Assembly: GCF_016758195.1 (NCBI RefSeq)
Contig: NZ_QYAC01000009.1
Location: 1-64,000, forward strand
Source of the DNA: Leucobacter chromiireducens subsp. solipictus
GTDB lineage: Bacteria > Actinomycetota > Actinomycetes > Actinomycetales > Microbacteriaceae
Direction: 5' to 3'
DNA: 64,000 nt
Position numbers and translations under genes: made by a program. The first letter of the stretch is position 1. Each line of letters opens with the position of its first letter. Positions 2,776 through 18,466 of this stretch are shown one piece after another. Under the pieces are notes generated by a model. The model made no database searches. It had not been told where the DNA came from and worked only from the letters and a program-made list of their open reading frames with translations.

Positions 2776-4419
2776 TTAGGCGGCCGGCGCGGGGGCCGGC
2801 AGCCCCCGGAGGGCTACCGTGAGCGCGGCACCGTCCTCGTCGGCCATCGCCGCCTTGCTCAGCCGGGCCAGCGCGCGCGCCGCGTCCGGGGTGCCGAGGA
2901 GCTGGGGCACCGCGCCGAGGAGGCGCGCGAAGCTCTCCGAGCCGTGCGCGTGAGTCTGGCCGTACCCCTTCAAGACGCGCGCGCACTTCGCGATCTCGCA
3001 CGCGAGATCGTAGTCCACAGCGGCGGTCTCGACGACGAGGTCGAGCCACGCGTCGATCGCGAGCTGCTCGCGGCCGTAGCGGAGCGAGCGCGGCCGCATG
3101 GGCCGCATCGACGCCATCAGCCACAGCATGCTCGACCCGAACACGGACGTCGTGTTGACGATCATCCCATCGCGCGTGATCGCGCCGACGAGCTTCGCGA
3201 ACAGCTGGGAGCGAGACAGCGCCCGACCGAGGGCCGTGGGCAGTGTGTCGGTGATCTCGTCGATCTGCGGGTGCAGGAACTCGCGCACCTGCGTGAGCTC
3301 GCCGCTGTCGGCCTTCGCCTCGACCCGGACCCCCTCGATGCGCCGCTTGCGGAGCTTTTGCAGCGCCACATGGATGGTGTCCTGGTACGACATCCAGAGG
3401 GCCGTGTGCCGCGCGACCTCGACGGAGAGGCTCGCGTCGCCCGCGCGCTCCGCGTCGAACGGTGCAACCCGGGCCACCCGGTCCAGGAACAGATCCGTGT
3501 ACGCGGGCCCCTGGTACATCGCGGTGCGCACGCACCCGTGCACCACCATCGAACGCGCCGGGGCCGCGAACTCGGGGATCCGGTCCATGCGGTCGGCGAT
3601 CTTCGGGCCGACGAGCGCCCGCGGATCGGAGGTCGCGAGCTCCGTATGCCGCGCCGCGGCGGCCTCGGCGGCCTCCTCTTCCGGATCGCGGGGTCGGCGC
3701 CGGCCGATCGTGACGCGGACCGGGCCGAGACCCGACGGCGGCTTCGGGCGGGCGGCCTCGGCCGCGGCGTCCTGCGCCGCGACGAAGCCGAGCCCGAACG
3801 CCGCGAGGGAACGCTCGACCGCTTTGCCCGAGCGGCGCAGCGACTCCTCGAACGCCTCCCGCGGGATCGGCAGCACGCCGGATCCCGCGAGCGCGCCGAA
3901 GAGCGAGGACGAGATCACGCTGCCCGCCTGCGCCGCGAGCGCGTTGAAATCGGTGGCGATGAGCTGCTTCGATCCGGCGCGGGCCGAAGCGATCAGGCTT
4001 TCGTCGTCGACGCGGCCGTCACCGAGGGCGATCTTCTCCGTGATCGCGTAGACGCGGTTCGTTGAGGCGATGAGCGTGGTCCGATCCGGCGTGCAGAAGC
4101 CGCGCTGGAGGGCGCGTCCGGCCTCCATCAGCTCGGACGCGATGACCACGTCGACCTGTCCCGGGGTGGGAAACAGGCTGAGGATCGGCTCGCTGCGCGC
4201 GCTCCCATCGCTCGCGGCATCGCTGCGCGGGTAGAGCTCCACGTAGTAGACTGTGGCACCCGTGCGCTGTGCGACGCCCGCGACCGAGGTGCTCTGCGTG
4301 ATGAATCCGGAGTCCTCGCCCAGCGAGACGATCCAGTCGGCGAGGACGCCGCCGCCCTCGCCGCCCATGGCGAGGATCGCGATCGTGATGGGCCGGCGGC
4401 CCGCTTCCCAGGTGCTCAC
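2776..4419 (-). CDS. Indolepyruvate oxidoreductase subunit beta family protein
   Basis: 547 aa, starting at a GTG (VSTWEAGRRPITIAILAMGG) that overlaps the stop of the upstream alpha subunit gene (GTGA at 4416-4419). The N-terminal ~200 residues are the gamma/beta-type domain of 2-oxoacid ferredoxin oxidoreductases, with a glycine-rich AMGGEGGGVLADW motif. The C-terminal ~330 residues correspond to the long extension (DUF6537-type) of the two-subunit proteobacterial and actinobacterial form. With the alpha subunit it should decarboxylate an aryl-2-oxoacid to an aryl-acetyl-CoA and pass electrons to ferredoxin. A longer frame continues upstream only as an antisense-like shadow of the alpha gene. 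Confidence 0.82.
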   Translation of the reverse strand: MSTWEAGRRPITIAILAMGGEGGGVLADWIVSLGEDSGFITQSTSVAGVAQRTGATVYYVELYPRSDAASDGSARSEPILSLFPTPGQVDVVIASELMEAGRALQRGFCTPDRTTLIASTNRVYAITEKIALGDGRVDDESLIASARAGSKQLIATDFNALAAQAGSVISSSLFGALAGSGVLPIPREAFEESLRRSGKAVERSLAAFGLGFVAAQDAAAEAARPKPPSGLGPVRVTIGRRRPRDPEEEAAEAAAARHTELATSDPRALVGPKIADRMDRIPEFAAPARSMVVHGCVRTAMYQGPAYTDLFLDRVARVAPFDAERAGDASLSVEVARHTALWMSYQDTIHVALQKLRKRRIEGVRVEAKADSGELTQVREFLHPQIDEITDTLPTALGRALSRSQLFAKLVGAITRDGMIVNTTSVFGSSMLWLMASMRPMRPRSLRYGREQLAIDAWLDLVVETAAVDYDLACEIAKCARVLKGYGQTHAHGSESFARLLGAVPQLLGTPDAARALARLSKAAMADEDGAALTVALRGLPAPAPAA

Positions 4420-6590
4420 GCGGCCACCTCGTACTGGCTCGCGCGCCGCTCGATGGGGGAGGACAGCAGGGCGATCCAGCCGCCGCGGATCTTCCCGAGC
4501 GTGCGGTCGATCCAGCTCGGGTTGATGACCACGTCGGTGCGGTAGAAGGAGGGGCACAGCGACGCGGCGTGCGCGTTTGCGCCGCACACCCCGCAGCCCA
4601 CGCAGCTGTCGATCACGGTGGCAACCGGGTCGGTGCGCATCGGATCGGGATTCTCTTTCAGCGTGAGGGAGGGGCAGCCCGAGATGCGGATGCAGGCGTG
4701 GTCGCCGGTGCAGGTATCGGCGTCGACGCCGAAGCGCTGGCGCACGACCCGCTTGCCCGCGGCGATGTCTTTCTGGCGTTTCGGCTTCTCCCGCCGCTGC
4801 TTGTTGAGCTGGCACTCGCTCTGCGCGACGATCACCTTCGGCCCCTCGGTCTCCGTCGTGAAGGCTTCGACGAACACCTTCTTGAGCTTCGCAACGTCAT
4901 AGGTGTGGGACATCGTCTTCGCCCATTTCACACCGATTCCGCGCACGGCCCGCTCGATCGGGTTGCCCGAGGAGCGGTTCGCGGTCTCCGCCTGGCCGTA
5001 GGAGGAGAGGACGTCCTGGCCGCCCGTTGCGGCGGCGTAGGAGTTGTCGACCACGACCACGACCTGGTCGTTCTTGTTGAACACGGCGTTGCCGATGCCG
5101 CTCGTGAGGCCGTTGTGCCAGAACCCGCCGTCGCCCATCACGCCGATGGTGGAGCGATCGGCGTCCTTCGGGTTGAGGGCCGCCGCCCCCGCGGAGCCGA
5201 GGCCGTAGCCCATCGTGGTGCCGCCCAGGTTGAACGGCTCATTGATCCCGAAGAGGTGGCAGCCGATGTCCATACTGACGTGGTGCTCCTGGCCCACTTC
5301 TTTCTCAGCGAGCTTCATCGCTGAGAAGATCGGCCGCTCGGGGCAGCCCGTGCACAGCCCGGGCGGGCGGGCCTGCACCTGTGCGGCCTCCACCCGGGGG
5401 GCGAAGGGGCTGGCCGGGTTGTCGGCCGGGAGGAGGAGCGACGGCTGCGTCGCGATGAGTTCCGGGGTGTACTGGCTGAGGAACTGGGTGAGCCCCTCGG
5501 TGACGACCTGGGTGGTGTACTCGCCGCCCATGGGCAGCAGGTCCTTGCCGTGGAGCGCGGTGTCGACGCCCGCCTTGCGGAGGATCGAGTGGAGGTTCTG
5601 CTCGATGTAGTCGGGCTGACCCTCCTCGAGGAGCAGCACGGCCCGCTTGTCGCGGCAGAACTCGAGGACTTCCGCGTCGATCACGGGGTAGGTGACGTTC
5701 ATCACGTACATCGGGACCCGGGTATTGCCGAACGCGTCCGAGCAGCCGAGCAGCTCGAGCGCCCGGTTCACCGTGTTGTAGAGGCCGCCCTGCACGATGA
5801 TGCCGATGTCGTCGACGTCGCCGTCGAAGAACTCGTTGAGCTGGTGCTCGCGAATGTACTCGACCGCCGCCGGCCAGCGCGCATGGACCTTCTCGTGCTC
5901 GTGCAGGAAGCTGGCGGGAGGCAGCACGATCCGGCTGAGGTCGCGCTGCGGGTTCTCGACCGCATCCGTGATGGTCATCGGCGGGCGCAGGTTCTCCGTC
6001 GTGGTGAAGGAACCCTGGAGATGGCAGGATCGCAGGCGCAGATCCAGCATCACCGGGGTGTTGCTGGCCTCGGACAGCGCGAAACCGTGTTTGACCGTGT
6101 TCACGATCGCGGAGATGTTGGGGCGTGGATCGAGGAGCCACATCTGCGATTTCATCGCGAATGCGTGGGAGCGCTCCTGCATGATGCTGGATCCTTCGCC
6201 GTAGTCCTCGCCGAGGATCACGAGCGCGCCGCCCTGGACGCCGCCGCTCGAGAGGTTCGCGAGCGCGTCCGACGCCACGTTGAGCCCCACCGTCGATTTG
6301 AACGTGACGGCCCCGCGGAGGGGGTAGTGGACGGACGCGGCGAGCATTGCGGCCGCCGTCGCCTCGGAGGCGGAATTCTCAAAATAGACATCCAGCTCTT
6401 CGAGGATGTCGTGCGCGTCACCGAGCACATCCATGAGGTGCGAGATCGGTGCACCCTGGTAGCCGCCGACGTAGGCGACCCCCGATTCCAGCAGGGCCTT
6501 GGTCACGGCGAGGATTCCCTCGACGTGCAGTTCGGTCCCGGCCTCGGAACGGAGGAGCTTGACCTCGTTGACGAATGACCGTTCAGCCAT
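4416..6590 (-). CDS. iorA: Indolepyruvate ferredoxin oxidoreductase alpha subunit (IorA-like)
   Basis: 724-aa TPP enzyme. It has an N-terminal pyrimidine-binding domain (about 20-390), a TPP-binding domain with MGDGGFWHNG near residue 480 followed by VVVVDNSYAAATGG, and a C-terminal ferredoxin-like part. Of the two iron-sulfur motifs, CVGCGVCGANAHAASLCP (about 660) looks intact. The first (CTGDHACIRISGC) lacks canonical CxxCxxC spacing, as is usual in this sub-family. It should oxidise aryl pyruvates (indolepyruvate, phenylpyruvate) to the CoA thioester. It has its own promoter (6649-6676), which carries the element shared with the liv, paaX and FAH promoters. The RBS is AAAGGGCAG. Confidence 0.86.
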   Translation of the reverse strand: MAERSFVNEVKLLRSEAGTELHVEGILAVTKALLESGVAYVGGYQGAPISHLMDVLGDAHDILEELDVYFENSASEATAAAMLAASVHYPLRGAVTFKSTVGLNVASDALANLSSGGVQGGALVILGEDYGEGSSIMQERSHAFAMKSQMWLLDPRPNISAIVNTVKHGFALSEASNTPVMLDLRLRSCHLQGSFTTTENLRPPMTITDAVENPQRDLSRIVLPPASFLHEHEKVHARWPAAVEYIREHQLNEFFDGDVDDIGIIVQGGLYNTVNRALELLGCSDAFGNTRVPMYVMNVTYPVIDAEVLEFCRDKRAVLLLEEGQPDYIEQNLHSILRKAGVDTALHGKDLLPMGGEYTTQVVTEGLTQFLSQYTPELIATQPSLLLPADNPASPFAPRVEAAQVQARPPGLCTGCPERPIFSAMKLAEKEVGQEHHVSMDIGCHLFGINEPFNLGGTTMGYGLGSAGAAALNPKDADRSTIGVMGDGGFWHNGLTSGIGNAVFNKNDQVVVVVDNSYAAATGGQDVLSSYGQAETANRSSGNPIERAVRGIGVKWAKTMSHTYDVAKLKKVFVEAFTTETEGPKVIVAQSECQLNKQRREKPKRQKDIAAGKRVVRQRFGVDADTCTGDHACIRISGCPSLTLKENPDPMRTDPVATVIDSCVGCGVCGANAHAASLCPSFYRTDVVINPSWIDRTLGKIRGGWIALLSSPIERRASQYEVAA

Positions 6591-6648
6591 AATTTCTGCC
6601 CTTTCGTGTCACCATTGACCCGTGTCCCTTACGCGAGGGCACGATCCC

Positions 6649-6676
6649 AATATATCAAAGATCGTGCGATCGTCAC
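6649..6676 (-). promoter_or_regulatory. Promoter of iorA with shared PaaX-type element
   Basis: On the minus strand, -35 GTGACG (6671-6676), a 16-bp spacer and -10 TATATT (6649-6654). The -35 is part of TGACGATCGC (6666-6675). The same TGAYGNWCGY box with the same 16-bp spacing occurs at the livJ, paaX and FAH promoters. An operator overlapping the -35 would suit repression by the PaaX-family protein encoded at 11604-12425. Confidence 0.55.
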
Positions 6677-6710
6677 AGAAGTGACAGGAAAAGTTCGGAT
6701 TACGGATCGG

Positions 6711-7787
6711 TTACGGCCGTGGCATCAGGCGGGGCCGAAACGGCCAGCTCGCCTCGCGCCCGCCCGTGATCCCGGACGGGCGGAAAATGAGAATCAGGAC
6801 CATGATCGCGCCGAGCGTGATTAAGCGGCTTCCCGAAGGAATGGAGATCAGGCTCTCGCCCAGCTGGACGCCCTTTTCGAGGAGCCCGAGGATGTGGCTC
6901 AGTGCGGAGATCGCGAGGGTGCCGACCACGGCACCCCACAGCGAACGCATCCCGCCCACGACGAGCATCGCGATCGTCGTAAACGTGAAGTCCAGCGAGA
7001 ACTGCGAGGCCTGGGCGACCCCGTTCAGCTGCACCCAGACGGCCCCGCCGACGGCCGCCAGCGCCCCCGAAACAGTGAACGCCAGCAGGCGGTGCAGCGT
7101 GATCCGGACGCCGGACGCCGGTGCCGCCTGGATGTTGTCGCGTGAGGCCCGGAGCATCCGGGCGCTGCGACTCTGCCCGTAGAGCCAGGCAAGTGCGATG
7201 ACGGCGAGGGCGATGATCAGCACGCCCTGCAGATCGAAGCTGCGTGGCAACCCGGTCATCGACTGGCCCGCCTTCGGGCCGATTCGCGTCCAGTAGGTCA
7301 GGATCTGCACGACCAGCATGAGCAGGGCAAAGGTCGCGATGCCCGCCTCGAGGCCGTGCAGGCGCATGAGGGCGAGGCCGCTGATGAATGCGAGCAGGCC
7401 GCCCATCACGGCGGCCACGAGGAGGGCCACGATGGGACCCGCCTGGGCCTCCGTGAGGAACGGGAACAGATCCGGCATGATCGCCGTCTTGATCTGGCTC
7501 GGGATCGTGAGGAGCGAGAGCGTCCACGCGCCCACCGCCACGAACGCGATGTGCCCGAAGGAGAGTACGCCGCTGTTCCCGATGAAGGTCCACATGGCGA
7601 CCACGATGATCAGGTTCGCGAGCGCGTAGCCGAGATCGATCGATGCGGCCTGCGAGATCGAACTCGCGACCAGCGAGAACAGCCACACGGTGATGAGCGG
7701 CACCGCGAGCGACCACAGTCGGGCGACGGCTTCGGGGACGGCGATGCCCGTGAATCGGTGCCGGGGGAGGGGCGTCGGGGAGGTCAT
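6711..7787 (-). CDS. livM: Branched-chain-type ABC transporter permease (LivM)
   Basis: 358-aa integral membrane permease of the HAAT importer family with about 10 hydrophobic segments. The conserved cytoplasmic coupling loop reads SARMLRASRDNIQAAPASGV, as in LivM. The ATG at 7787 overlaps the stop of livH (7784) in an ATGA. It is the last gene of a five-gene leftward operon (livJ-G-F-H-M). It imports an amino acid or aromatic acid together with LivH. The catabolic setting suggests an aromatic substrate, but that is inference. Confidence 0.88.
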   Translation of the reverse strand: MTSPTPLPRHRFTGIAVPEAVARLWSLAVPLITVWLFSLVASSISQAASIDLGYALANLIIVVAMWTFIGNSGVLSFGHIAFVAVGAWTLSLLTIPSQIKTAIMPDLFPFLTEAQAGPIVALLVAAVMGGLLAFISGLALMRLHGLEAGIATFALLMLVVQILTYWTRIGPKAGQSMTGLPRSFDLQGVLIIALAVIALAWLYGQSRSARMLRASRDNIQAAPASGVRITLHRLLAFTVSGALAAVGGAVWVQLNGVAQASQFSLDFTFTTIAMLVVGGMRSLWGAVVGTLAISALSHILGLLEKGVQLGESLISIPSGSRLITLGAIMVLILIFRPSGITGGREASWPFRPRLMPRP

Positions 7788-8665
7788 GTGCGCTCCTTCG
7801 AGGTGCGACTGGCGAAGATGCCGTTGGGAGCGATGACGAGCACGACGGCCACGAGGAGATACACAAAGGCAATGCGGAAGTCGTTGATCCACGCTGGCAA
7901 GAATGAGGTGAACAGGGATACCGCGAAGCCGACCAGGAAGCCACCGGCGACGCTGCCGCCGAGCTTCCCGAGGCCACCGATCGTCGACCCGATGAGCGCG
8001 AAGAGGGTGACCTGCACGCCGAACGTCGGCCCGACCGATCCGCTCTGGGCCGTCATGACAAACGCGATCGCCGCGGCGAGCACGCCACTGATCGCGAAGG
8101 TCAGCGCGATGACGCTGCCCGCCCGGATCCCCAGGATGCGCGCGGCGCGGAAGTCTTCGGAGGCCGCCTGCACCTGGAGTCCCATGCGCGTGCGGGTCAG
8201 GAACAGACGCACAGCGATGAGGAGGAGCGCGGCGAGCGCGATCGAAACGATCGAGACGAGATTGATCCGCAGTTCCCCCACGTGGATCGACGCCGAGAGT
8301 CCCGGGGCGACCGCCGCGGAGCGCACGTTGGTGCCGAACACCCCGTCGTAGACGCGCTGCAGCAGGATGCTGAGCCCGAAGCTCGCGATGAGAAGGGTGG
8401 CGGGGGGCTGCGCGCGGAGCCACCGGAACACGGCGGCGTCCATGCACCACGCCAGGACGACGGCCACGACGATCGAGGCGACGATCGCGAGCGGCGGGGA
8501 GACGGGCCACAGCAGGATGAGCGCGTACCCGGCCCCCGTGATGAGCTCGCCGTTGGCGAAGTTTGCGAGGCGCATCACGCCAAACACGAGGCCGATGCCG
8601 AGGGCCGCGAGCGCGTAGACCGCGCCCGTGGAGGTTGCGTCAATGAGAGCCTGAAGAATGTTCAC
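7784..8665 (-). CDS. livH: Branched-chain-type ABC transporter permease (LivH)
   Basis: 293-aa permease with about 8 TM helices. It has the LivH hallmarks GLVFGVMRLANFANGEL near the N-terminus and the ASEDFRAARILGIRAGSVI coupling loop. It overlaps livF upstream (ATGA at 8662-8665) and livM downstream (ATGA at 7784-7787). It forms the channel with LivM. Confidence 0.88.
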   Translation of the reverse strand: MNILQALIDATSTGAVYALAALGIGLVFGVMRLANFANGELITGAGYALILLWPVSPPLAIVASIVVAVVLAWCMDAAVFRWLRAQPPATLLIASFGLSILLQRVYDGVFGTNVRSAAVAPGLSASIHVGELRINLVSIVSIALAALLLIAVRLFLTRTRMGLQVQAASEDFRAARILGIRAGSVIALTFAISGVLAAAIAFVMTAQSGSVGPTFGVQVTLFALIGSTIGGLGKLGGSVAGGFLVGFAVSLFTSFLPAWINDFRIAFVYLLVAVVLVIAPNGIFASRTSKERT

Positions 8666-9393
8666 GAGCCGAGATACGCTTTCATCAGAAGGGCGGAGTC
8701 CTGGGCGTCTGCGGGACCGAGCGTCATGGTGATCCGGCCCTCACTGAGCACGTGCGTGCGATCCGCCGCGGCGACGGTCTGCTGAGCGCGCTGCTCCACG
8801 AGGAGGACGGCGGTGCCGCGCTCGCGGATGCGTTCGATCGAGGCAAACACGGTGTCGACGGCGGTCGGGGACAACCCGAGCGAGGGTTCGTCGAGTGCCA
8901 GGAGGCGGGGGGCCGCGAGGAGTGCCCGTCCGATGGCCAGCTGCTGCTGCTGCCCGCCCGAGAGGAGCCCCGCCTGGCGGTCCGCAAACTCATCGAGGAT
9001 GGGAAACAGCGAATGCACCCAGGCGAGATCCTCGTCCAGGCCGGCCGAACTGGCGCGGGCGGTCGAGCCGAGGCGCAGATTCTCGCGCACCGTCAGCCGG
9101 CCGAAGACGTTGTGCCCCTCCGACACGAGCGCGAGACCCGAGCGCGCAATACGCTCGGTCGGCACCCCCAGCGTGGCGGCTCCCGCGAACTCGAGTGCGG
9201 TCGCCTGGGCGCGCACCGCCCCGACCAGCGCGTGCATGAACGAGGATTTTCCGGCCCCGTTCGGCCCGATGATCCCGACGAGCTCGCCCGCGTCGACGTG
9301 GCAGGAGACGCCGTTGACGGCGCGGACGCCGCGGTAGGAGACCGTGAGGTGGTCGACGGTGAGGAGGCGCGTCGGCGCGGGAGCGGCGGTCAT
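8662..9393 (-). CDS. livF: Branched-chain-type ABC transporter ATPase (LivF)
   Basis: 243-aa ATPase: Walker A GPNGAGKSS (about residue 43), signature LLSGGQQQQLAIGRAL, Walker B LLALDEPSLGLSP and the LivF-like LVEQ switch region. The ATG at 9393 overlaps the livG stop (9390). A longer upstream frame is only the livG antisense-frame shadow. Confidence 0.88.
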   Translation of the reverse strand: MTAAPAPTRLLTVDHLTVSYRGVRAVNGVSCHVDAGELVGIIGPNGAGKSSFMHALVGAVRAQATALEFAGAATLGVPTERIARSGLALVSEGHNVFGRLTVRENLRLGSTARASSAGLDEDLAWVHSLFPILDEFADRQAGLLSGGQQQQLAIGRALLAAPRLLALDEPSLGLSPTAVDTVFASIERIRERGTAVLLVEQRAQQTVAAADRTHVLSEGRITMTLGPADAQDSALLMKAYLGS

Positions 9394-10166
9394 CCGAGGG
9401 CCCCCTCGCCGATCTGGGCGGCCGCGCTGCCGAGGTAACTGCTCGCGAGCCGCGCGTCGTGCCGGACCTCGTCGGGCGTGCCCGCGAGGACGTTCTTCCC
9501 GGCTCCGAGGACCGTAATGGTGTCGCAGCTCGAGAAAATGAGCGGCATGTTGTGATCGATGAGGAGCACGCCCACGTCGCGGTCGGCGACGGCACGCATC
9601 GTCTCGCGCAGGTGCTCCGCCTCGCCGTCGTTCAGCCCGGCCGCGGGTTCGTCGAGCAGCACGTAGCTCGGTCGGGTCGCGAGTGCGCGGGCGACCCCGA
9701 GGCGGCGTTCCACGCCGTGGGGCAGCCGGTCGGCATCGTGCAGCAGCCACTCCTCGAGCAGGAGATCCGCGAGGAGCTCCCGGGCGAGGGCGCGCGCCGC
9801 GCGCGGGCCGGCCCCGCAGGCGAGCGCGGTGACCTCGACGTTTTCGAGCACGGTGCAGCCGGCGAAGAGGTGTCCGTGCTGAAAGGTGCGGGCGACCCCG
9901 CGGCGCGCTCGGCGCTCGGGGCGGACCCGCGTGAAGTCCTCGCCGTCGACGTACACGTGACCGCTGTCCGGGCGATCGTAGCCGGTGAGGATATTCACCA
10001 GTGTCGACTTGCCGGCACCGTTGGCACCGATGAGGCCAGTGACCTGGCCGCGGGGGATGTCAATCGTGACATCCTGGAGCGCTTGGACCCCGCTGTATGC
10101 GCGGGAGAGGGCCTCCCCCCGCAGCTGCCGGGCAGCTGCGGGGGGAGAGACTGTCGACGGCGTCAT
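9390..10166 (-). CDS. livG: Branched-chain-type ABC transporter ATPase (LivG)
   Basis: 258-aa ATPase with Walker A GANGAGKST, the LivG-type GVARTFQ loop, Walker B YVLLDEPAAGLN and the LLIDHNM switch. The ABC signature is degenerate (LPHGVERRLGVARAL instead of LSGGQ or LSYGQQRR), which may be a true family variant. It starts 12 bp after the livJ stop and overlaps livF by 4 bp. Confidence 0.87.
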   Translation of the reverse strand: MTPSTVSPPAAARQLRGEALSRAYSGVQALQDVTIDIPRGQVTGLIGANGAGKSTLVNILTGYDRPDSGHVYVDGEDFTRVRPERRARRGVARTFQHGHLFAGCTVLENVEVTALACGAGPRAARALARELLADLLLEEWLLHDADRLPHGVERRLGVARALATRPSYVLLDEPAAGLNDGEAEHLRETMRAVADRDVGVLLIDHNMPLIFSSCDTITVLGAGKNVLAGTPDEVRHDARLASSYLGSAAAQIGEGALG

Positions 10167-10178
10167 GTGCGCGTCTCG

Positions 10179-11384
10179 CTAGCGGATGACTTTTTCGGGT
10201 GCGCGGGTCTCGACGTGCGCGAGCGCCCCGTCGGCAACCTGGAGCACGCGCTGCGGACGCTCCACGTTGACGTGCAATTCCTCGCTGAAGGAGGTGGGGC
10301 CGACGAGGAGCGGAACGTCCGTGAAACCCGTGAGGGCCGCGGCGAGCTTGTCCCCGTCCCAGGATCCGGCCTCCTCCGCCGCGAGCTTCACTGCCTCGAT
10401 TGCGGAGGCCCCCGTGGTCATGCTGCCGTTCTCGGGCCGGGAACCCGTGACCTCTTCGTACGTCGCCGAGGCCTCGTTCACCTTCGGGTCGCTGTCGTCG
10501 CCCCAGACCGAGGGGTACGTGACGATGTAGTAGTCCGTGAGCCCGGGGATCGCGTCGAGCCAGAACGTCCCGTCCATGCCGAATCCGGAGACGACGGGGG
10601 TGTCGATGCCGCCGTCGCGGAGTTCTTTCGCGGCCTTGCCGCCGCCCTCGCCGTAGCTGCAGTTGAACACGACGTCCGGTGCGGGGCCGCTCGTGATCTT
10701 CGAGACGGTCTCCTTGATGGAGTCGCCCTGCTTGAACGTATAGGTGGCGATCTCGGTGCCGCCGAGCTCGGTGAACCGCTTCGCGGCGGTCTCGCACTGA
10801 TTCTGCGTGTACTTGATGGAGTCGTCCTTGACGAAGACGGCGTTCTTCCAGCCCCGCTCGGTCGCGAACTCGGCCATCACGCTGGCCTCGCCGGGGACGG
10901 CGTTGCCGAGCGAGAAGCCGATGTTGAGGCCGCCCTCGGGGCCGTAAATGGTGTCGCCGACGCAGGGGGCGATGTTGAGGATGTTGTGTTGTTCGGCGAC
11001 CTGTGAGGCGGGGACCGCGGTGTCGTAGTCGCACGTCACCATGAGGACCTTCGCCCCGTCGTCGATGAGGCTCTGCGCGGCGGGCGCGTATTTCTCGAAG
11101 TCCGATCCGGTGTCGATCACGGAGAGCTCGACCGGGGTGCCGTCGATGCCGCCGTCCTCGTTGAGCTCGTCAACGGCGATCTTCATGGCGGTGAGCGCGG
11201 GGGTGTCGAAGGGGGACATGAATCCCGTCTCGGCCATCACCGCGCCGATGAGAATTGGTTCACCGGCGTCGCCCGCATCAGCGGTGGAGCCGGATCCGGA
11301 TCCGGGTGCTGCGGAGACGCAGCCGGACAGTGCGAGCGAGCTGACGGCGAGTGCCGTCAGGACGCCCAGATGGGTCTTGCGCAT
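10179..11384 (-). CDS. ABC transporter substrate-binding lipoprotein (LivJ-type)
   Basis: 401 aa. A lipoprotein signal peptide ends at LALSGC (Cys22). It is followed by a Ser/Gly-rich tether and a periplasmic-binding fold of the Leu/Ile/Val-binding (PBP type 1) class starting at EPILIGAVMAETGFMSPFD. First gene of the liv operon, with its promoter at 11540-11567. Binding proteins of this class near aromatic catabolism genes often carry aromatic acids rather than leucine. An upstream in-frame extension to 11537 is rejected because the signal peptide fits the ATG at 11384. Confidence 0.87.
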   Translation of the reverse strand: MRKTHLGVLTALAVSSLALSGCVSAAPGSGSGSTADAGDAGEPILIGAVMAETGFMSPFDTPALTAMKIAVDELNEDGGIDGTPVELSVIDTGSDFEKYAPAAQSLIDDGAKVLMVTCDYDTAVPASQVAEQHNILNIAPCVGDTIYGPEGGLNIGFSLGNAVPGEASVMAEFATERGWKNAVFVKDDSIKYTQNQCETAAKRFTELGGTEIATYTFKQGDSIKETVSKITSGPAPDVVFNCSYGEGGGKAAKELRDGGIDTPVVSGFGMDGTFWLDAIPGLTDYYIVTYPSVWGDDSDPKVNEASATYEEVTGSRPENGSMTTGASAIEAVKLAAEEAGSWDGDKLAAALTGFTDVPLLVGPTSFSEELHVNVERPQRVLQVADGALAHVETRAPEKVIR

Positions 11385-11539
11385 GTGCTCGGGCCTTCCT
11401 GTGATGACGGAGCGGCTCGACAGTGAGGCCCGCTCGTCTGGATGTTCAGGGGCGCCAGCGGCGACGGGAGACGAAGAGCTGGGCTCTCGCAGCCCGGAAC
11501 AGGGAATCGGGCTGGGGTGTCGACGGTGACAGCACAATT

Positions 11540-11567
11540 ACTATCCCAGAAATGTAACGTCCGTCAA
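11540..11567 (-). promoter_or_regulatory. Promoter of liv operon with shared PaaX-type element
   Basis: Minus strand: -35 TTGACG (11562-11567), 16-bp spacer, -10 GATAGT (11540-11545). The extended box TGACGGACGT covers 11557-11566 and matches the TGAYGNWCGY element of the iorA, paaX and FAH promoters with the same spacing. Confidence 0.55.
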
Positions 11568-11603
11568 GAAGGTGTTTGAAATTGGCGAAGCGCGTACGCC
11601 GGG

Positions 11604-12425
11604 TTAGGGCGCGACGGAGCGCTCCACGAACGCGAATGCGGCCTGGTCGAGGTGCGTGACGATCTCCTCGATGAGGCGGGTGGCGGGATCGCCAGCCCAG
11701 TCGCTGCGGAGGAGTTCGCGGGGGAGGCCCGGATCCCGCATGGGCAGGACGCGCCAATCATCGAGCGCCCGCATGTAGTGGATGAACCCCTCCTGGGATT
11801 CGATGTCCGCAGGCTCGCGACGGCGCAGCGCCTGGAATCCGGGCTGGTGGCGGGCGAGGAAGTGCTGGTACCCCGCGTGGATATCCTCCAGATCCCAACT
11901 CTCGGACACCATGTGGCTGAGTTCCTGGCCGCCCGCGTGGCGACCCACGAAGAGATTCGTGTTCGCCATCAGGTCGAGCTGGTCGATCACCGCGATGGCC
12001 TCCTCGGCCATGCGGGCCGGCGCGATCCAGACGCCCTGTCCGGCGTTGCCAAAGCTGAGCGAGGCGAGGCGTGAGCGCAGGAGGTGCCGCTTCGCGCGGT
12101 GCTGCTCGGGGATCGAGAACGTCGCGATGCACCACCCATCACTCAGGTTTGCCGGTTGGCGGGAGTGCCAGATGAACTCGTCGCCGGTCGCGAGCGTGGT
12201 CTGGGCGTGCTCGGTGAGACGGTAGCCGCTGCGCCCGTCCCGCTTCTCGGGCAGGAGCCAGCCGCGCTTCTTCAGGCGGGACACACCGGTGCGGGTGCTC
12301 GACTCGTCAACGCCGAGGACCTCGAGCATCGCCACGATCCCTTTGATGGGGAGCCAGTCGCCCGTCCGGCGTGCGAACGCGCCGAGGAGGGTGACGAGGA
12401 GGGTGCGTGAGGTGTTCGAGTGCAT
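11604..12425 (-). CDS. PaaX-family transcriptional regulator
   Basis: 273 aa starting at ATG 12425 (MHSNTSRTLLVTLLGAF). The N-terminal winged helix (about 5-75) has the PaaX features STRTGVSRLKKRGWL and RSGYRLTEHA. The middle and C-terminal domains match PaaX (QGVWIAPARM, WDLEDIHAGYQHFL). PaaX represses phenylacetyl-CoA catabolism and senses an aryl-CoA, so this homologue may sense the CoA thioester made by the IorA system. The ATG at 12461 is rejected as start because it falls in the predicted -10 box. The gene is divergent from the VOC gene, and the shared region carries the putative operator. Confidence 0.85.
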   Translation of the reverse strand: MHSNTSRTLLVTLLGAFARRTGDWLPIKGIVAMLEVLGVDESSTRTGVSRLKKRGWLLPEKRDGRSGYRLTEHAQTTLATGDEFIWHSRQPANLSDGWCIATFSIPEQHRAKRHLLRSRLASLSFGNAGQGVWIAPARMAEEAIAVIDQLDLMANTNLFVGRHAGGQELSHMVSESWDLEDIHAGYQHFLARHQPGFQALRRREPADIESQEGFIHYMRALDDWRVLPMRDPGLPRELLRSDWAGDPATRLIEEIVTHLDQAAFAFVERSVAP

Positions 12426-12459
12426 TCGGGTGGCCTGCCTACTCCGCGAGGGGTGATCC

Positions 12460-12487
12460 ATATTGACATTTCTCTTGCGATCATCAC
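12460..12487 (-). promoter_or_regulatory. Autoregulatory promoter of the paaX-type gene
   Basis: Minus strand: -35 GTGATG (12482-12487), 16-bp spacer, weak -10 CAATAT (12460-12465). The extended box TGATGATCGC (12477-12486) matches the element at three other promoters. A TTGACA on the plus strand at 12463-12468 may serve the divergent VOC gene, so an operator here could control both. Confidence 0.45.
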
Positions 12488-12545
12488 AGATTCGTGACAG
12501 TTTGAGGTGGAGCCCGACGGAGTGTGCTCAGATACAGGAGCGTCC

Positions 12546-13031
12546 ATGACCCAGTTTCCATCGTTCTCTCACGTCGGTATTACGGTACCGAATCTTCGCG
12601 ATGCCGTCGATTGGTACCGCGACACGTTCGGCTGCTACCTGCTTGCGGGGCCGATCGAGGTTCACGAAGACGACAGTCCGCTCGGGATCGCCGCGACCGG
12701 CATTTACGGTGCAGGGTTCACTCGCTTCGCGTTTGCGCACATGTCGGGAGCTGACGGCGCGGGCCTGGAGATCTTCGAGTTCGCGGCCCCCGCGTATCAG
12801 CGCCCCGCCGATTCCTTCGAGTTTTGGCGCAGCGGTGTGAACCATTTCGCGGTCACCGCACACGACGTCGCGGGATTCGCGGCGCAGGTGGTGGCGGCGG
12901 GTGGGCGGCAGCGCTCCGAGGTCGTCGTGATCAACCCCGAACGCGGCTTCGAGATCGTCTACTGCGAAGATCCCTGGGGCAATGTGTTCGAGGTGTGCTC
13001 GCACCCCTACCCCTATATGTGGGGTGGGTGA
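12546..13031 (+). CDS. VOC-family (glyoxalase/dioxygenase fold) protein
   Basis: 161 aa with two beta-alpha-beta-beta-beta modules. Putative metal ligands are His in FSHVGITV, Glu in GLEIFEF, His in VNHFAV and Glu in CEDPWGNVFEV, the usual set for type I glyoxalase-like enzymes. The start is set by CAGGAGCGTCCATG; an in-frame start at 12507 lacks a ribosome site. It is divergent from the paaX-type gene. An epimerase, lyase or small dioxygenase role is possible; the substrate is unknown. Confidence 0.8.
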   Translation: MTQFPSFSHVGITVPNLRDAVDWYRDTFGCYLLAGPIEVHEDDSPLGIAATGIYGAGFTRFAFAHMSGADGAGLEIFEFAAPAYQRPADSFEFWRSGVNHFAVTAHDVAGFAAQVVAAGGRQRSEVVVINPERGFEIVYCEDPWGNVFEVCSHPYPYMWGG

Positions 13032-13048
13032 GGGGCGGAGCTCAGGCA

Positions 13049-13081
13049 ATTCGGGCCCCGGGCGCTGCCCGGGGCCCGAAT
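13049..13081. terminator. Bidirectional terminator
   Basis: 15-bp perfect stem (arm beginning ATTCGGGCCCCGGGC) with a 3-nt loop between the convergent VOC and thioesterase genes. Confidence 0.7.
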
Positions 13082-13094
13082 CTCTGTCATGGCG

Positions 13095-13493
13095 CTACGC
13101 GTCGCGGAGCACCGTGGTCACGCGGGCGGTCGACACGCGCCGGCCCTCCTCATCGTCGATCTCCACGGCGTAGACCGCGACGGACTTGCCGAGCCGGATG
13201 GCCGAGCAGGTGGCGGTGACTCGGCCCGCCGCGGCCCGGCCGGTATGGGTGGCGCTGATGTCGAGGCCGACCGCCGTGCGGCCGTCGCCCGCGTGTTCGC
13301 ACGCCGCGAGCGAGGCGAGGGTCTCGGCGAGTGTGCAGTAGGCGCCGCCGTGCATGGAGCCGGTGATCTGTCGATTGCCCGCGACGGGCATGGTGGCGAC
13401 GGCGTGCTCGGCGCTGACGCGAACGAACTCGATGCCGAGTCGCTCGTCGAGCTCACCGAGGATGGTCTGGACGGGTCCGGTGGTGGGGGTCAT
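13095..13493 (-). CDS. PaaI-type hotdog thioesterase
   Basis: 132-aa 4HBT hotdog protein with the GSMHGGAYCTLAE motif typical of PaaI/YdiI acyl-CoA thioesterases (the His-Gly-Gly turn and catalytic acidic residue). It probably hydrolyses a stalled aromatic CoA thioester. It lies 14 bp after the RidA gene in the same leftward operon, which diverges from the FAH operon. Confidence 0.83.
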   Translation of the reverse strand: MTPTTGPVQTILGELDERLGIEFVRVSAEHAVATMPVAGNRQITGSMHGGAYCTLAETLASLAACEHAGDGRTAVGLDISATHTGRAAAGRVTATCSAIRLGKSVAVYAVEIDDEEGRRVSTARVTTVLRDA

Positions 13494-13507
13494 GGCGTCT
13501 CCTCACG

Positions 13508-13921
13508 TCAGTGTGTGGGTGAGTCGGCATCGCCGAGGTAGGCGACGCCCTGGATCTCGATCAGTGCCTCGGGCTGCCACAGCTGCGTGACGCCGACCCC
13601 CGCCATGGCGGGGTACTCGGTTCCGGCCATCTCGCGCCAGAGCTTGCCGATCTCGCGGCCGTTGCGCTGGTAGTCGTCGACGTCGGTGAGGTAGATCGTG
13701 ACGTCGATGAGGTCGGCGGGTGTGCCGCCCGCGTGTTCGAGCGTGGCGAGCACGTTGCCGAACGCCTGGACGAACTGCTCGATGATGCCGCCGGGCACGA
13801 TCTCGTAGTCCGCGTTGAGGGCCGTCTGCCCGCCGAGATAGACAAAGGGGCCCGCTTTGACGCCGTGCGCAAAGCCCTTCGGCTTGCAGAGCTGCGGGGG
13901 GTTGATGATTTCTGCTGACAT
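13508..13921 (-). CDS. RidA-family protein (first copy)
   Basis: 137-aa YjgF/YER057c/UK114 protein. The start at 13921 has an ideal AGAAGGAGA site; the longer frame to 13987 does not. RidA proteins remove reactive enamine/imine intermediates or, in some subfamilies, hydrolyse aminoacrylates from ring cleavage. The usual catalytic Arg region is not clearly conserved (EYPAMAGVGVTQLW), so it may belong to an Rid1-7 catabolic subclass. First gene of the operon with the PaaI thioesterase. Confidence 0.8.
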   Translation of the reverse strand: MSAEIINPPQLCKPKGFAHGVKAGPFVYLGGQTALNADYEIVPGGIIEQFVQAFGNVLATLEHAGGTPADLIDVTIYLTDVDDYQRNGREIGKLWREMAGTEYPAMAGVGVTQLWQPEALIEIQGVAYLGDADSPTH

Positions 13922-14008
13922 CGTTGTCTCCTTCTGAGCCTGGGGCTCCTGGCACTTCGAGCCGGTGGCTCTGGGTGGGCGTCGCAAGAAACTTTCTGTC
14001 TCGTACTT

Positions 14009-14036
14009 GTGACGTTCGTGATTATTCTGACATACT
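14009..14036 (+). promoter_or_regulatory. Promoter of the FAH-tesB-hydroxylase operon with shared element
   Basis: Plus strand: -35 GTGACG (14009-14014), 16-bp spacer, -10 CATACT (14031-14036). The extended box TGACGTTCGT covers 14010-14019. Architecture is identical to the iorA promoter. The following TTCGTGATT also resembles the half of the published E. coli PaaX consensus reading TTCGYGWT. Confidence 0.55.
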
Positions 14037-14108: not shown

Positions 14109-14987
14109 ATGCACTTGGCGACAATCCACACGGGGGCCGGCCACACGCGCGCCGCCGTCCGCGGCAGCGACGCCGACGACTGGACCCTCCTTGCGGAATC
14201 CGACGCGGGCGTGCTGATCGCGCACCCCGACTGGCGCGATCGGGTCGACCGGGCGCTCGCCGATCCGGGATCGGAGCGCGTGAGCGCGGCCGGCTCGGAG
14301 CTGGCGGCCCCGATCCCGCGCCCCGCGAAGATCGTCTGTTGCGGGCTGAACTACCACGACCACATTGTGGAGACCGGGCGCGACGTTCCGGAGTACCCGA
14401 CGCTGTTCGCGAAGTTCGCGGATACGCTGACCGGCCCGACCGCTGACCTCGTGATCGCGGGATCCGAGAAGGTCGACTGGGAGGCCGAACTCGTCGTCGT
14501 TGTGGGGGCTCCGATCCGCCACGCGAGCCGCGCGCAAGCCGAAGCGGCGATCCTGGGATACACGGTGGCGAACGACGTCTCCTGCCGGGACTGGCAGGCG
14601 CGCACGCTGCAGTGGTTCCAGGGAAAGGCCTGGGATCGCACCACGCCGCTCGGCCCCGTCGTGGTGACCGCGGACGCGATCTCGCCCACAGACGGGCTCA
14701 GCATCCAGTGCGAGATCGACGGCGACACCGTGCAGCACAGCAACACCCGAGAGCTCGTGTTCGACGCCGCCGACCTCGTCGCGTATGTGTCCCAGTTCAC
14801 GGAACTCGGCCCGGGAGACCTCATCCTCACCGGGACCCCGGGCGGCGTGGGCCTCGGGGCCACCCCGCCGCGGTGGCTGCGCGACGGTCAGGTGCTCACC
14901 ACCACGATCGCGGGCATCGGCACGCTGACGAACACGTTGCGTATCTCGCAGCTCGCACCCGCACACGAACCGGAGGATCCCGCATGA
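14109..14987 (+). CDS. Fumarylacetoacetate hydrolase (FAH) family protein
   Basis: 292 aa. The N-terminal ~65 residues are a short lid domain. The FAH catalytic domain starts at KIVCCGLNYHDHI and includes metal ligand Glu in WEAELVVVVG, then DVSCRDWQARTLQW and the conserved LILTGTPGGVG loop. Such enzymes hydrolyse or decarboxylate 1,3-dioxo acids such as fumarylpyruvate or acylpyruvates formed after ring opening. First gene of the rightward operon; overlaps tesB by an ATGA. Confidence 0.86.
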   Translation: MHLATIHTGAGHTRAAVRGSDADDWTLLAESDAGVLIAHPDWRDRVDRALADPGSERVSAAGSELAAPIPRPAKIVCCGLNYHDHIVETGRDVPEYPTLFAKFADTLTGPTADLVIAGSEKVDWEAELVVVVGAPIRHASRAQAEAAILGYTVANDVSCRDWQARTLQWFQGKAWDRTTPLGPVVVTADAISPTDGLSIQCEIDGDTVQHSNTRELVFDAADLVAYVSQFTELGPGDLILTGTPGGVGLGATPPRWLRDGQVLTTTIAGIGTLTNTLRISQLAPAHEPEDPA

Positions 14988-15895
14988 ACACCGCACCGAC
15001 CCCCGACAGCTCGGCCGCCCCGGGGAACCACGCCGATAGCCAGCGTTTCCTGGCCGCGATCCGGCTCACCGAGCGGCCCGCGGAGGTATTCGATCGCGCC
15101 TTCGAGGTGATCCCCCAGTATGTGCCGTGGCCCAAAGCGTACGGCGGGGACTCCGTCGCGCAGGCCGCTGCCGCGGCGCTCGCCACCGTCGGGGACGACC
15201 GTGAGCTGCACGCGATGCACAGCTCATTCCTGCGCCCCGTCACCATTGGCGAGCCCGTCCGCTACGAGGTCGAGCTGCTCCGCGATGGGCGCGGCTACTC
15301 CACCCGCCATGTCCGTGGGTTCCAGGGCGGCAAAGCGGTATTTCTCACGACCGCCTCGTTCCAGGTCCCCGAGGACGGCCCGGTGCACGCCCCCGCCATC
15401 CCCGAGGTGCCCGCGCCCGAGAGCCTTCCGAGCTCCGCAGACTACCTTCGCGAGCGCGGCGCGGACACCTCGCCCGCGGGCGACTACTGGGCACACGGCC
15501 GCAGCTTCGATATGCGGCACATTCCGGGCCCGCTGTACGTCGAGGTCGACGGGGTGGCGAGCACGCATCAGGGGGTGTGGCTCCGCGCCTTCGAGACGCT
15601 GCCGGATGACCCGCGCACTCAGCAGCTCGCACTCGCCTACGCCTGCGACTACACCATCCTGGAACCCTCGCTCCGTGCCCTCGGCCTGCACTGGTCGACG
15701 CCCGGGCTCGTGACCGCGAGCCTGGATCACAGCATGTGGTTCCACAGCCCGGCGCGCGCCGACGACTGGGTGCTGTACCTCCAGGACAGCTCCGGCGTGC
15801 AGCGTGGTCGCGGCCTCAATCTCGGCCGCTTCTTCGCCCGAGACGGCACGCTCATCGCGACCGTCGCGCAAGAGGGCATGATCCGCCACCCCTGA
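14984..15895 (+). CDS. tesB: Acyl-CoA thioesterase II (TesB-type)
   Basis: 303-aa double hotdog enzyme. Diagnostic segments are the ASFQ turn, ACDYTIL and TASLDHSMWFH with the catalytic Asp. The start ATG overlaps the FAH stop (14984-14987) and is preceded by CGGAGGATC. In this operon it may release a hydroxylated aromatic or ring-opened acid from CoA. It is the second thioesterase in this regulon. Confidence 0.86.
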   Translation: MNTAPTPDSSAAPGNHADSQRFLAAIRLTERPAEVFDRAFEVIPQYVPWPKAYGGDSVAQAAAAALATVGDDRELHAMHSSFLRPVTIGEPVRYEVELLRDGRGYSTRHVRGFQGGKAVFLTTASFQVPEDGPVHAPAIPEVPAPESLPSSADYLRERGADTSPAGDYWAHGRSFDMRHIPGPLYVEVDGVASTHQGVWLRAFETLPDDPRTQQLALAYACDYTILEPSLRALGLHWSTPGLVTASLDHSMWFHSPARADDWVLYLQDSSGVQRGRGLNLGRFFARDGTLIATVAQEGMIRHP

Positions 15896-15965
15896 CTCCC
15901 CGCCGTACCGCGGTCGCGCGCACCCAATGGAGGGGCCGCGCTGCACCCGTAGAAAGGACACCCGA

Positions 15966-18350
15966 ATGGGAAAACGAATCGCCGTCATCGGAGGCGGGCC
16001 CGCCGGGCTCTACTTCGCCGTGTTGGCCAAGAAACTCGACCCGAGCCACGAGATCACGATCTGGGAGCGGAACGCCCGCGATGACACGTTTGGCTTCGGC
16101 GTCGTGTTCAGCGATGAGACGCTCAGCGGCATCCAGAACGCTGACCCGGAGACGTTCGCCGCGATGCAGCAGTGCGCCGCGCAGTGGAGCGACATCGACG
16201 TGCACTTCAAGGGCGAGCGCATCACCGTCGGGGGGCAGGGCTTCGCGGCGACCAGCCGCAAGGCGCTCCTGCTGCTGCTCCAGGAACGCGCCCTGGAGCT
16301 CGGGGTGACGATCCACTTCCTCACCGAGGCCCCCGACGTCGACGCACTGTCCGCGGAGTACGATCTTGTGATCGCGGCGGACGGCATCAACTCCCGGATC
16401 CGACCCCACTACGCGGACAGCTTCGGACCGTCGCTCGATCCTCGCCGCTCGAAGTTCATCTGGCTGGGGCTCGATCGCGCGATCGAGGCGTTCACGTTCC
16501 ACGTCAAGCACACCCCGTGGGGCATCATCCAGGTGCACGCCTACCCGTACTCCGCGACGGAGAGTACCTTCCTCGTCGAGATGCACGAGGATGTGTGGCG
16601 CGCCGCCGGTTTCGACGCGAGCGAGAGCCAGGTCTTCCCGCCCGGCGTCAGCGATGATGCCTCGGTCGCGAAGCTCGCCGAGATCTTCGCGGACGAGCTC
16701 GACGGCGCGAAACTCCTCACCAACAACTCGAAGTGGATCACCTTCAACACGGTGCGCAACGAGAAATGGAGCCACAGCAACGTGGTGCTGCTCGGGGACG
16801 CCGCGCACACGGCGCACTTCTCGATCGGGTCCGGCACCAAGCTGGCGCTCGAGGACGCACTGGCGCTCGCCGCGAACCTCCACGAGCACCCGGACGATCT
16901 TCCCGCCGCCCTCGACGCGTACGAGGCGGAACGGCGCCCGGTGGTGCTCTCGCTGCAGCGCGCCGCCCAGGCCTCGCTCGAGTGGTTCGAGAACATCGGG
17001 CAGTACGCCGATCAGGAGCCGCTGCAGTTCGCCTTCAACCTCCTCACGCGCTCGCGCCGGATCACCTTCGAGAACCTGGGGTTGCGCGACGCGGACTTCG
17101 CGGGCGTCATGCAGCGCGATTTCGCGAACCGCACCTCGGGCTCGGACGTGCCCGCCATGTTCCAGCCGTTCCGGATCGGGCAGCTCGAACTGAAGAACCG
17201 GATCATCGTGTCGGCGATGGATCAGTACTCCGCCGAGGACGGCGTGGTCACCGACTTCCATCTCGTCCACCTCGGAAGCCGAGCCATGGGCGGGGCGGGG
17301 CTCGTGATGACCGAGATGATCGCGCCGAGCGCGGACGGCAGGATCTCCCCGGCCGATGCGGGCCTGTACACGGACGAGCAGGGGGACGCCTGGCGGCGGA
17401 TCGTGGAGTTCGTGCACGCCAACTCCACGGCGAAGATCGGCGCGCAGATCGGCCACTCCGGCCGGAAGGGCTCCACGAAGAAGATGTGGGAGGGGATCGA
17501 CGAGCCCGTGGAGACGGGCGGCTGGGAGGTGATCGCCCCCTCCGCGCTCCCGTACGGGCCGGCCAGCAACGTGCCGCGCGCGGCGACCCGTGCCGATCTC
17601 GACCGGATCCGGGACGCGCACGTCGCGGCGACGCAGCGCGCCGCCGCCGCGGGCTTCGACCTGCTCGAGCTCCACGCCGCGCACGGCTACCTGCTCTCGT
17701 CGTTCCTCTCGCCCGTCGCCAACCAGCGCGACGACGAGTACGGCGGGAGCCTCGAGAACCGGCTCCGCTACCCGCTCGAGGTCTTCGACGCCGTGCGCGC
17801 GGCGTGGCCCGCCGACAAACCGCTCCTCGTGCGCATCTCCGCGCACGACTGGATTCCCGGGGGCAACGACGACGAAGACGCCGTGGCGATCGCCGCCGCG
17901 TTCATCGAGCACGGCGCGGACGGCATCGACGTCTCGTCCGGGCAGGTGGGCGGGGAGGAACGCCCCCAGTTCGGTCGCAGCTACCAGACGCCCTTTGCCG
18001 ACAAGATCCGCAATCGCGTCGCCGAGAAGGCGGGTGCCGCCGTCGTCGCCGTGGGGGCGATCTCCTCCTACGACGACGTGAACTCCCTGCTCCTCGCCGG
18101 GCGCTGCGATCTCGTCGCGATCGGGCGCAGCCACCTCTACGACCCGCACTGGACCTTGCACGCCGCCGCCGATCAGGAGTTCCAGGGCGACTCCGCGGCC
18201 TGGATCAACCCCTACCGTGCCGGCCGCCGCAAGCCGCCGACCGCTCGCACGGACGCGATCCGGCCTCGACTCGAACTCCTGCACGCCGCGGACGGGCAGG
18301 ACTCGGCGCACACCCGATGGATTGGAGGGCGCACCGTCCCGGCCGTATAG
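15966..18350 (+). CDS. Fused FAD monooxygenase / OYE reductase (salicylyl-CoA or 2-aminobenzoyl-CoA hydroxylase type)
   Basis: 794-aa fusion. Residues ~1-385 are a class A flavoprotein monooxygenase: GGGPAGLYFAV Rossmann motif, GDAAHTAHFSIGSGTKLALED FAD site. Residues ~400-780 are an Old Yellow Enzyme barrel: FRIGQLELKNRIIVSAM, LHAAHGYLLSSFLSP, the conserved YGGSLENRLRY. This architecture is known from salicylyl-CoA 5-hydroxylase (SdgC) and 2-aminobenzoyl-CoA monooxygenase/reductase, which act on aryl-CoA. The start at 15966 has AGAAAGGACACCCGA; the frame start at 15927 does not. No CoA ligase lies in the window, so the activating enzyme must be elsewhere or the CoA ester arises by oxidative decarboxylation. 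Confidence 0.85.
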   Translation: MGKRIAVIGGGPAGLYFAVLAKKLDPSHEITIWERNARDDTFGFGVVFSDETLSGIQNADPETFAAMQQCAAQWSDIDVHFKGERITVGGQGFAATSRKALLLLLQERALELGVTIHFLTEAPDVDALSAEYDLVIAADGINSRIRPHYADSFGPSLDPRRSKFIWLGLDRAIEAFTFHVKHTPWGIIQVHAYPYSATESTFLVEMHEDVWRAAGFDASESQVFPPGVSDDASVAKLAEIFADELDGAKLLTNNSKWITFNTVRNEKWSHSNVVLLGDAAHTAHFSIGSGTKLALEDALALAANLHEHPDDLPAALDAYEAERRPVVLSLQRAAQASLEWFENIGQYADQEPLQFAFNLLTRSRRITFENLGLRDADFAGVMQRDFANRTSGSDVPAMFQPFRIGQLELKNRIIVSAMDQYSAEDGVVTDFHLVHLGSRAMGGAGLVMTEMIAPSADGRISPADAGLYTDEQGDAWRRIVEFVHANSTAKIGAQIGHSGRKGSTKKMWEGIDEPVETGGWEVIAPSALPYGPASNVPRAATRADLDRIRDAHVAATQRAAAAGFDLLELHAAHGYLLSSFLSPVANQRDDEYGGSLENRLRYPLEVFDAVRAAWPADKPLLVRISAHDWIPGGNDDEDAVAIAAAFIEHGADGIDVSSGQVGGEERPQFGRSYQTPFADKIRNRVAEKAGAAVVAVGAISSYDDVNSLLLAGRCDLVAIGRSHLYDPHWTLHAAADQEFQGDSAAWINPYRAGRRKPPTARTDAIRPRLELLHAADGQDSAHTRWIGGRTVPAV

Positions 18351-18466
18351 CCCCGCAGATTCGACACCCCAGTAGGATCACATCGCGGGTGTCGGCGGGG
18401 GCGGCGCCCTGGAGCGCTGCCCCGCCGGCACCCCGGTCATCACATCTCAACGAGGAGACCCACACC

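Follow-up and report, generated by a model that had tools for sequence, protein, structure and literature searches.

The first 64,000 nucleotides of contig NZ_QYAC01000009.1 (C11) of Leucobacter chromiireducens subsp. solipictus, hereafter the window, raise the question whether the promoters of iorA, livJ, paaX and fah, which share a short sequence element, are controlled by one regulator and which effector this regulator senses. Judged from sequence comparisons, the element is very probably the operator of a PaaX-family repressor which works like MeqR2 of the Arthrobacter plasmid pAL1 and would be released by 2-aminobenzoyl-coenzyme A (2-aminobenzoyl-CoA, anthraniloyl-CoA).

The element in four promoters

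In the first-pass annotation of this DNA, four 10-mers had been described, each with the same spacing to a -10 box. All of them were located in the window sequence exactly as described and, when the -35 hexamer is written as nTGAYG, 16 bp separate it from a -10-like hexamer at every promoter (Table 1). The left half of the element is TGACG, the right half is more variable, and the ideal form is the palindrome TGACGNNCGTCA. By eye, its fixed bases are matched at nine of ten positions by the fah and livJ sites, at eight by the iorA site and at seven by the paaX site. The element overlaps the -35 hexamers of iorA, livJ and fah. The fourth copy, TGATGATCGC, lies between paaX and voc. Three of the four -10 boxes had also been rated as good; the livJ site and the -10 of paaX are weaker than claimed. 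The -10-like hexamer of paaX overlaps the ATG (12461-12459) of the listed paaX open reading frame (ORF), and translation more likely starts at the in-frame ATG at 12425. Between paaX and voc, the window and four relatives share a further conserved block, GAGCCCGACGGAGTGTGCTC (12510..12529 in the window, + strand).

Conservation and specificity of the element

For comparison, stretches around PaaX genes were taken from nine other Leucobacter genomes (58-77% identical) and from six further members of the family (42-61%). With the window included, the strict 10-mer was present upstream of iorA in 6/7, of livJ in 5/7, of fah in 9/11 and of paaX in 6/16 cases. The element is thus conserved in orthologous Leucobacter promoters. 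Where PaaX is at least 58% identical, five of 11 paaX upstream regions contain it. For the livJ gene of genome G135, no site nearby was among the best profile matches. In G047, the operator is kept at iorA despite a distance of about 23 kb from paaX (L073:3428-3448).

From the ortholog upstream sequences, 29 sites were chosen by eye, those of paaX from five loci only. All 29 were used for the whole-profile scans (leave-one-out, further loci, pAL1 and ligase places). A sequence-only model, R1, was built from 23 of them, after omission of five sites with identical sequence and of the livJ site of G045, a genuine deviant. The C eight bases ahead of TGA is invariant in the 23 aligned sites and is present in the left-out deviant, too. 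When the pooled sites were analysed for dyad symmetry, the optimum, at a CG-NN-CG centre, was only modest.

The 10-mer alone was rejected as evidence, since 630 copies (332 forward, 298 reverse) occur in the 3.54-Mb genome. The extended element, unlike the bare 10-mer, is not common. In a leave-one-promoter-out analysis, a profile was trained on three promoters and the fourth was ranked among 127,954 window positions. With columns -12 to +12, the ranks were 3 (iorA), 4 (paaX), 4 (fah) and 122 (livJ), and the iorA, paaX and fah sites were each the top untrained position. Columns -2 to +12 gave ranks of 4, 5, 8 and 235, respectively, and the bare 10-mer 6, 43, 28 and 107. In the own genome, R1 found the fah, iorA and paaX sites with expectation values (E) of 0.0085, 0.085 and 0.67, and chance-level matches began at 1.6. 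As these three sites belong to the training set, a fair judgement has to be based on the leave-one-out ranks and on untrained sites. The latter were ridA/fah of G045 (E 0.010), iorA of G047 (0.35) and ligase/IclR of G042 (0.22), as well as the cupin-ligase sites of G012 (0.90) and G051 (0.96) and the cupin-tesB-ligase site of G013 (0.33).

A probable MeqR2-like regulator and the rival explanations

The window regulator possesses the N-terminal, middle and C-terminal PaaX Pfam domains, all above cut-off. With 145.4 bits it does not reach the cut-off of 264.55 of NCBIfam TIGR02277 (phenylacetate repressor PaaX), and both PaaA/PaaC-type matches are located on C5, the window being on C11. A phenylacetate regulon was therefore rejected. 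The regulator gene adjoins acmr, fah, tesB and ridA genes, as expected of a MeqR2-type regulator. Each of the 11 Leucobacter genomes with acmr also possesses a PaaX-like gene, at an identity of at least 58% in ten and of 37% in G013; in ten genomes it lies on the same stretch as acmr, in G045 on a different contig. Beyond the genus, acmr is within the stretch at 9/9 order-level and 4/6 family-level PaaX loci, and the element accompanies PaaX-family genes in Leucobacter and in some other Micrococcales.

Plasmid pAL1 of Arthrobacter sp. Rue61a encodes the PaaX-type repressor MeqR2. It reportedly binds TGACGNNCGTcA, with sites at the -35 in two promoters, and responds to anthraniloyl-CoA (Niewerth et al. 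2013, J Bacteriol). The profile made from the window sites and their orthologs was also run on positions 5000-32000 of pAL1. Its six top-scoring separate places were 340 bp before sod, at ridA/fah, and before the genes of a flavin adenine dinucleotide (FAD) monooxygenase and a molybdopterin oxidase, moaA and the second PaaX gene. At five of them TGACGNNCGTCA is present with no more than one mismatch, in three cases exactly; moaE contains one further copy of this kind. The proposal of a PaaX-type regulon is supported, as the element goes with PaaX-family genes and the profile finds promoters of the quinaldine/anthranilate cluster of pAL1. Two PaaX-related regulators take part in the control of this pAL1 cluster, according to the available part of PMC3534580.

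Two exact copies of TGACGNNCGTCA were listed for the own genome. One is within open frames on C5. The second copy, at C11:121567-121578, stands roughly 65 bp upstream of a ligase homolog (C11:119873-121501), a position of the kind expected for a target of a MeqR2-type regulator. This homolog is 57% identical to the pAL1 ligase gene and is the only one in the genome at E up to 1e-100. By a rough estimate (two places, 200-bp target), the chance of finding the palindrome near the ligase gene is about 1 in 9,000. Going by gene order, the pAL1 gene would be the ligase of PMC3534580. Ligase homologs were detected in ten of 54 Leucobacter genomes, all within the 11 with acmr, and at nine of 11 ligase places a site is located upstream of the gene or operon (G000, G008, G012, G013, G020, G042, G045, G047-C1 and G051). 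The acmr (C3:305837-308248) and ligase (C3:223311-224450) matches of G020 each contain one in-frame TGA, through decay or sequencing error.

According to the proposed mechanism, the PaaX-family protein (11604-12461) would bind the element and, since this overlaps the -35 hexamers at iorA, livJ and fah, would keep RNA polymerase off these promoters. Binding of 2-aminobenzoyl-CoA to the protein would release it from the DNA. The fah-tesB-acmr-isatin-hydrolase run, iorAB, the liv transporter, the paaX-voc region and the ligase gene 107 kb off on the same contig would then be switched on. Anthraniloyl-CoA, which was already on the effector list of the first-pass annotation, is the likeliest effector.

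It is conceivable, though unlikely, that a PaaX-type regulator responds to another aryl-CoA, namely salicylyl-CoA, phenylacetyl-CoA or indoleacetyl-CoA. The enzyme encoded at 15927-18350 scores above the NCBIfam cut-off for salicylyl-CoA 5-hydroxylase, and iorA resembles indolepyruvate oxidoreductases. However, the pAL1 gene with the same NCBI name was assigned to anthranilate (PMC3534580), and the ligase gene preceded by this operator is similar to that of an enzyme described as active on anthranilate. Moreover, RidA-like and isatin-hydrolase-like genes fit an amino-aromatic substrate, and the paaA/paaC-type genes are on C5. It is quite improbable that the shared sequence is merely a good promoter, with a TTGACG-like -35 located 16 bp from an extended -10, and without any specific regulator. 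The element does overlap the -35, and at the chosen sites of iorA (7/7), livJ (7/7) and fah (10/10) a -10-like hexamer lies at the same distance. In addition, livJ gains most from the -10 columns, which raise its leave-one-out rank to 10. On the other hand, conservation extends from 12 bases ahead of the element across the spacer between -35 and -10, and a profile without the -10 still recovers three sites. At paaX orthologs the element is kept, but the -10 is missing at the other four paaX sites. Slightly less probable still is an operator of another regulator of the region, such as the AraC-type gene (1816-2748), which lies beside iorB: in G012, G051 and G042, in whose stretches no ior, liv or AraC gene was found, the fah promoter retains the element, and pAL1 has the element together with two PaaX genes.

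Several results weigh against a MeqR2-like operator. In a tree of PaaX proteins (33 rows, deep forks unresolved, the G025 ortholog filtered out), MeqR2 clusters with the other PaaX-type protein of pAL1 and with two further paralogs from Leucobacter (96/96), whereas the window protein belongs to a separate group of 16 (89/99). The latter is filed as a PaaX-family regulator that probably works like MeqR2, not as a MeqR2 ortholog. The 10-mer occurs in only six of the 16 paaX upstream regions. The livJ site, the weakest of the four, fails the leave-one-out analysis and is not among the seven R1 matches in the own genome. With up to one mismatch, TGACGNNCGTCA is common there (258 places). Good-scoring R1 matches were also found within genes (two in G042 at E 0.026, one in G001 at 0.030), and some match at E up to 5 is present in 51 of 54 genomes. 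Of 25 further loci, only six (L050, L053, L092, L096, L064 and L058) scored higher than every one of 60 simulated sequences; for the phenylacetate region of the own genome, where no site is expected, just one of 60 scored higher. Finally, at two of the 11 ligase places (G047-C2 and G025) no site was among the best matches.

Gene content and comparison with known systems

The features are compiled in Table 1. The region also contains a PaaI-type thioesterase gene, and its rightward run comprises fah, tesB, acmr and genes of an isatin-hydrolase-like and a RidA-like protein.

Table 1. Features of the window and of further loci
Feature	Position	Strand	Basis or remark
AraC-type gene beside iorB	1816-2748		
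iorB-like subunit	2776..4419	-	POR and DUF6537 domains
iorA-like 2-oxoacid oxidoreductase subunit	4416..6590	-	TIGR03336 below cut-off, TPP domain
iorA promoter	-35 GTGACG 6676-6671, -10 TATATT 6654-6649	-	16-bp spacer
iorA operator element TGACGATCGC	6666..6675	-	10-mer check, ortholog conservation, leave-one-out rank 3, second-best genome match
liv-type ABC transporter genes livJ, G, F, H, M	6711..11384	-	
livJ promoter	-35 TTGACG 11567-11562, -10-like GATAGT 11545-11540	-	16-bp spacer
livJ operator element TGACGGACGT	11557..11566	-	10-mer check, ortholog upstream regions; weak in leave-one-out
PaaX-family regulator	11604..12461 (likelier start 12425)	-	three PaaX Pfam domains; below NCBIfam PaaX cut-off
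paaX promoter	-35 GTGATG 12487-12482, -10-like CAATAT 12465-12460	-	16-bp spacer
paaX/voc operator element TGATGATCGC	12477..12486	-	between paaX and voc; leave-one-out rank 4, third genome match
VOC (glyoxalase-like) protein, divergent from paaX	12547..13031 (ORF from 12507)	+	
RidA-like protein, divergent from fah	13503..13922	-	43% over 98 residues to pAL1 RidA gene; no Pfam match
fah promoter	-35 GTGACG 14009-14014, -10 CATACT 14031-14036	+	16-bp spacer
fah operator element TGACGTTCGTGA	14010..14021	+	leave-one-out rank 4, best genome match
FAH-family hydrolase	14109..14987	+	
TesB-type acyl-CoA thioesterase	14984..15895	+	
acmr, 2-aminobenzoyl-CoA monooxygenase/reductase-like	15927..18350	+	NF006101 above cut-off (salicylyl-CoA 5-hydroxylase); 68% to pAL1 enzyme
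isatin-hydrolase-like protein, directly after acmr	18380..19237 (start approximate)	+	isatin hydrolase 5nmp, E 8.9e-77
GTGACGATCGTGCA sites in four Leucobacter genomes	L057:10855, L058:6581, L059:11115, L061:11946		

Seven of the 54 genus genomes possess iorA, all of them with acmr and with an isatin-hydrolase-like gene adjoining it. The latter gene is present in 18 of 54 genomes and is not specific to the anthranilate-type route, since 11 of its carriers lack iorA and acmr. Tentatively, the isatin-hydrolase-like enzyme may open isatin, and the IorAB-like pair may oxidise isatinate, a 2-oxo acid, directly to 2-aminobenzoyl-CoA; free anthranilate and the ligase would thereby be bypassed, and the product would also induce the whole set. 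The IorAB step, to which only gene context points, is somewhat doubtful. A route from isatin via isatinate to 2-aminobenzoyl-CoA through IorAB was not found in the excerpts of literature examined. The idea that IorAB strictly takes the place of the ligase was discarded because six of the seven iorA-bearing genomes have a ligase homolog elsewhere.

What looks like a second PaaX-type regulon is marked by GTGACGATCGTGCA, which in G008, G022, G043 and G001 is separated by about 3.6-3.7 kb from a PaaX gene of lower identity (33-34%), with transporter-type genes nearby in the first three. In G206, from another genus, CGTGACG-AA-CGTCACG with perfect 7-base arms precedes paaX, and a second site lies about 520 bp before fah. 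G435 has two PaaX-type genes in one cluster (L053:4311-5075, 6233-7057), as on pAL1.

Through these findings, the MeqR2-type operator known from a plasmid of Arthrobacter is extended to genomes of Leucobacter. They also offer a simple means to locate scattered genes of 2-aminobenzoyl-CoA catabolism, as the exact palindrome pointed to the distant ligase gene. Furthermore, the joint presence of the IorAB-like pair, the liv-type transporter and the isatin-hydrolase-like gene in one probable regulon provides substrate suggestions for proteins named only by similarity.

Among known systems, the iad auxin loci run from indole-3-acetate via isatin to anthranilate. However, the iac/iad loci are regulated by MarR-family proteins and in one case by LysR, and PaaX does not occur in the available text of PMC9613470, from which both statements are taken. 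PaaX of Escherichia coli has the same domains as the window protein, which matches its structure 8a39 weakly (E 6.5e-17). In the available part of a review (PMC9493321), it is described as repressing its own promoter by hindering RNA polymerase and as being released by phenylacetyl-CoA. Its site, TGATTC(N27)GAATCA (PMC9493321), differs from the element, and the window protein, below the NCBIfam cut-off and with the paa genes elsewhere (C5), also departs from PaaX of E. coli and Pseudomonas. The first-pass annotation had noted a resemblance, short of identity, to the E. coli consensus; the right comparison is the MeqR2-type palindrome. Among the papers listed for PaaX operators, for PaaX generally and for PaaX-family motifs in Actinobacteria, none dealt with such a motif.

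The closest likeness is to MeqR2 and pAL1. The regulators belong to the same protein family, and the target motif is near TGACGNNCGTCA. On pAL1, the regulator genes flank ridA and fah-cupin-tesB-ligase-acmr, and the window has ridA and fah-tesB-acmr, with protein identities of 52% (fah), 62% (tesB) and 68% (acmr). By contrast, the window protein is only 32% identical to MeqR2 over 250 residues and belongs to another clade, the right half of the window sites is degenerate, and the ligase gene is 107 kb away. The kind of regulon is known from the pAL1 switch; what is new is its reach, since the window set adds iorAB, the liv-type transporter and the isatin-hydrolase-like gene.

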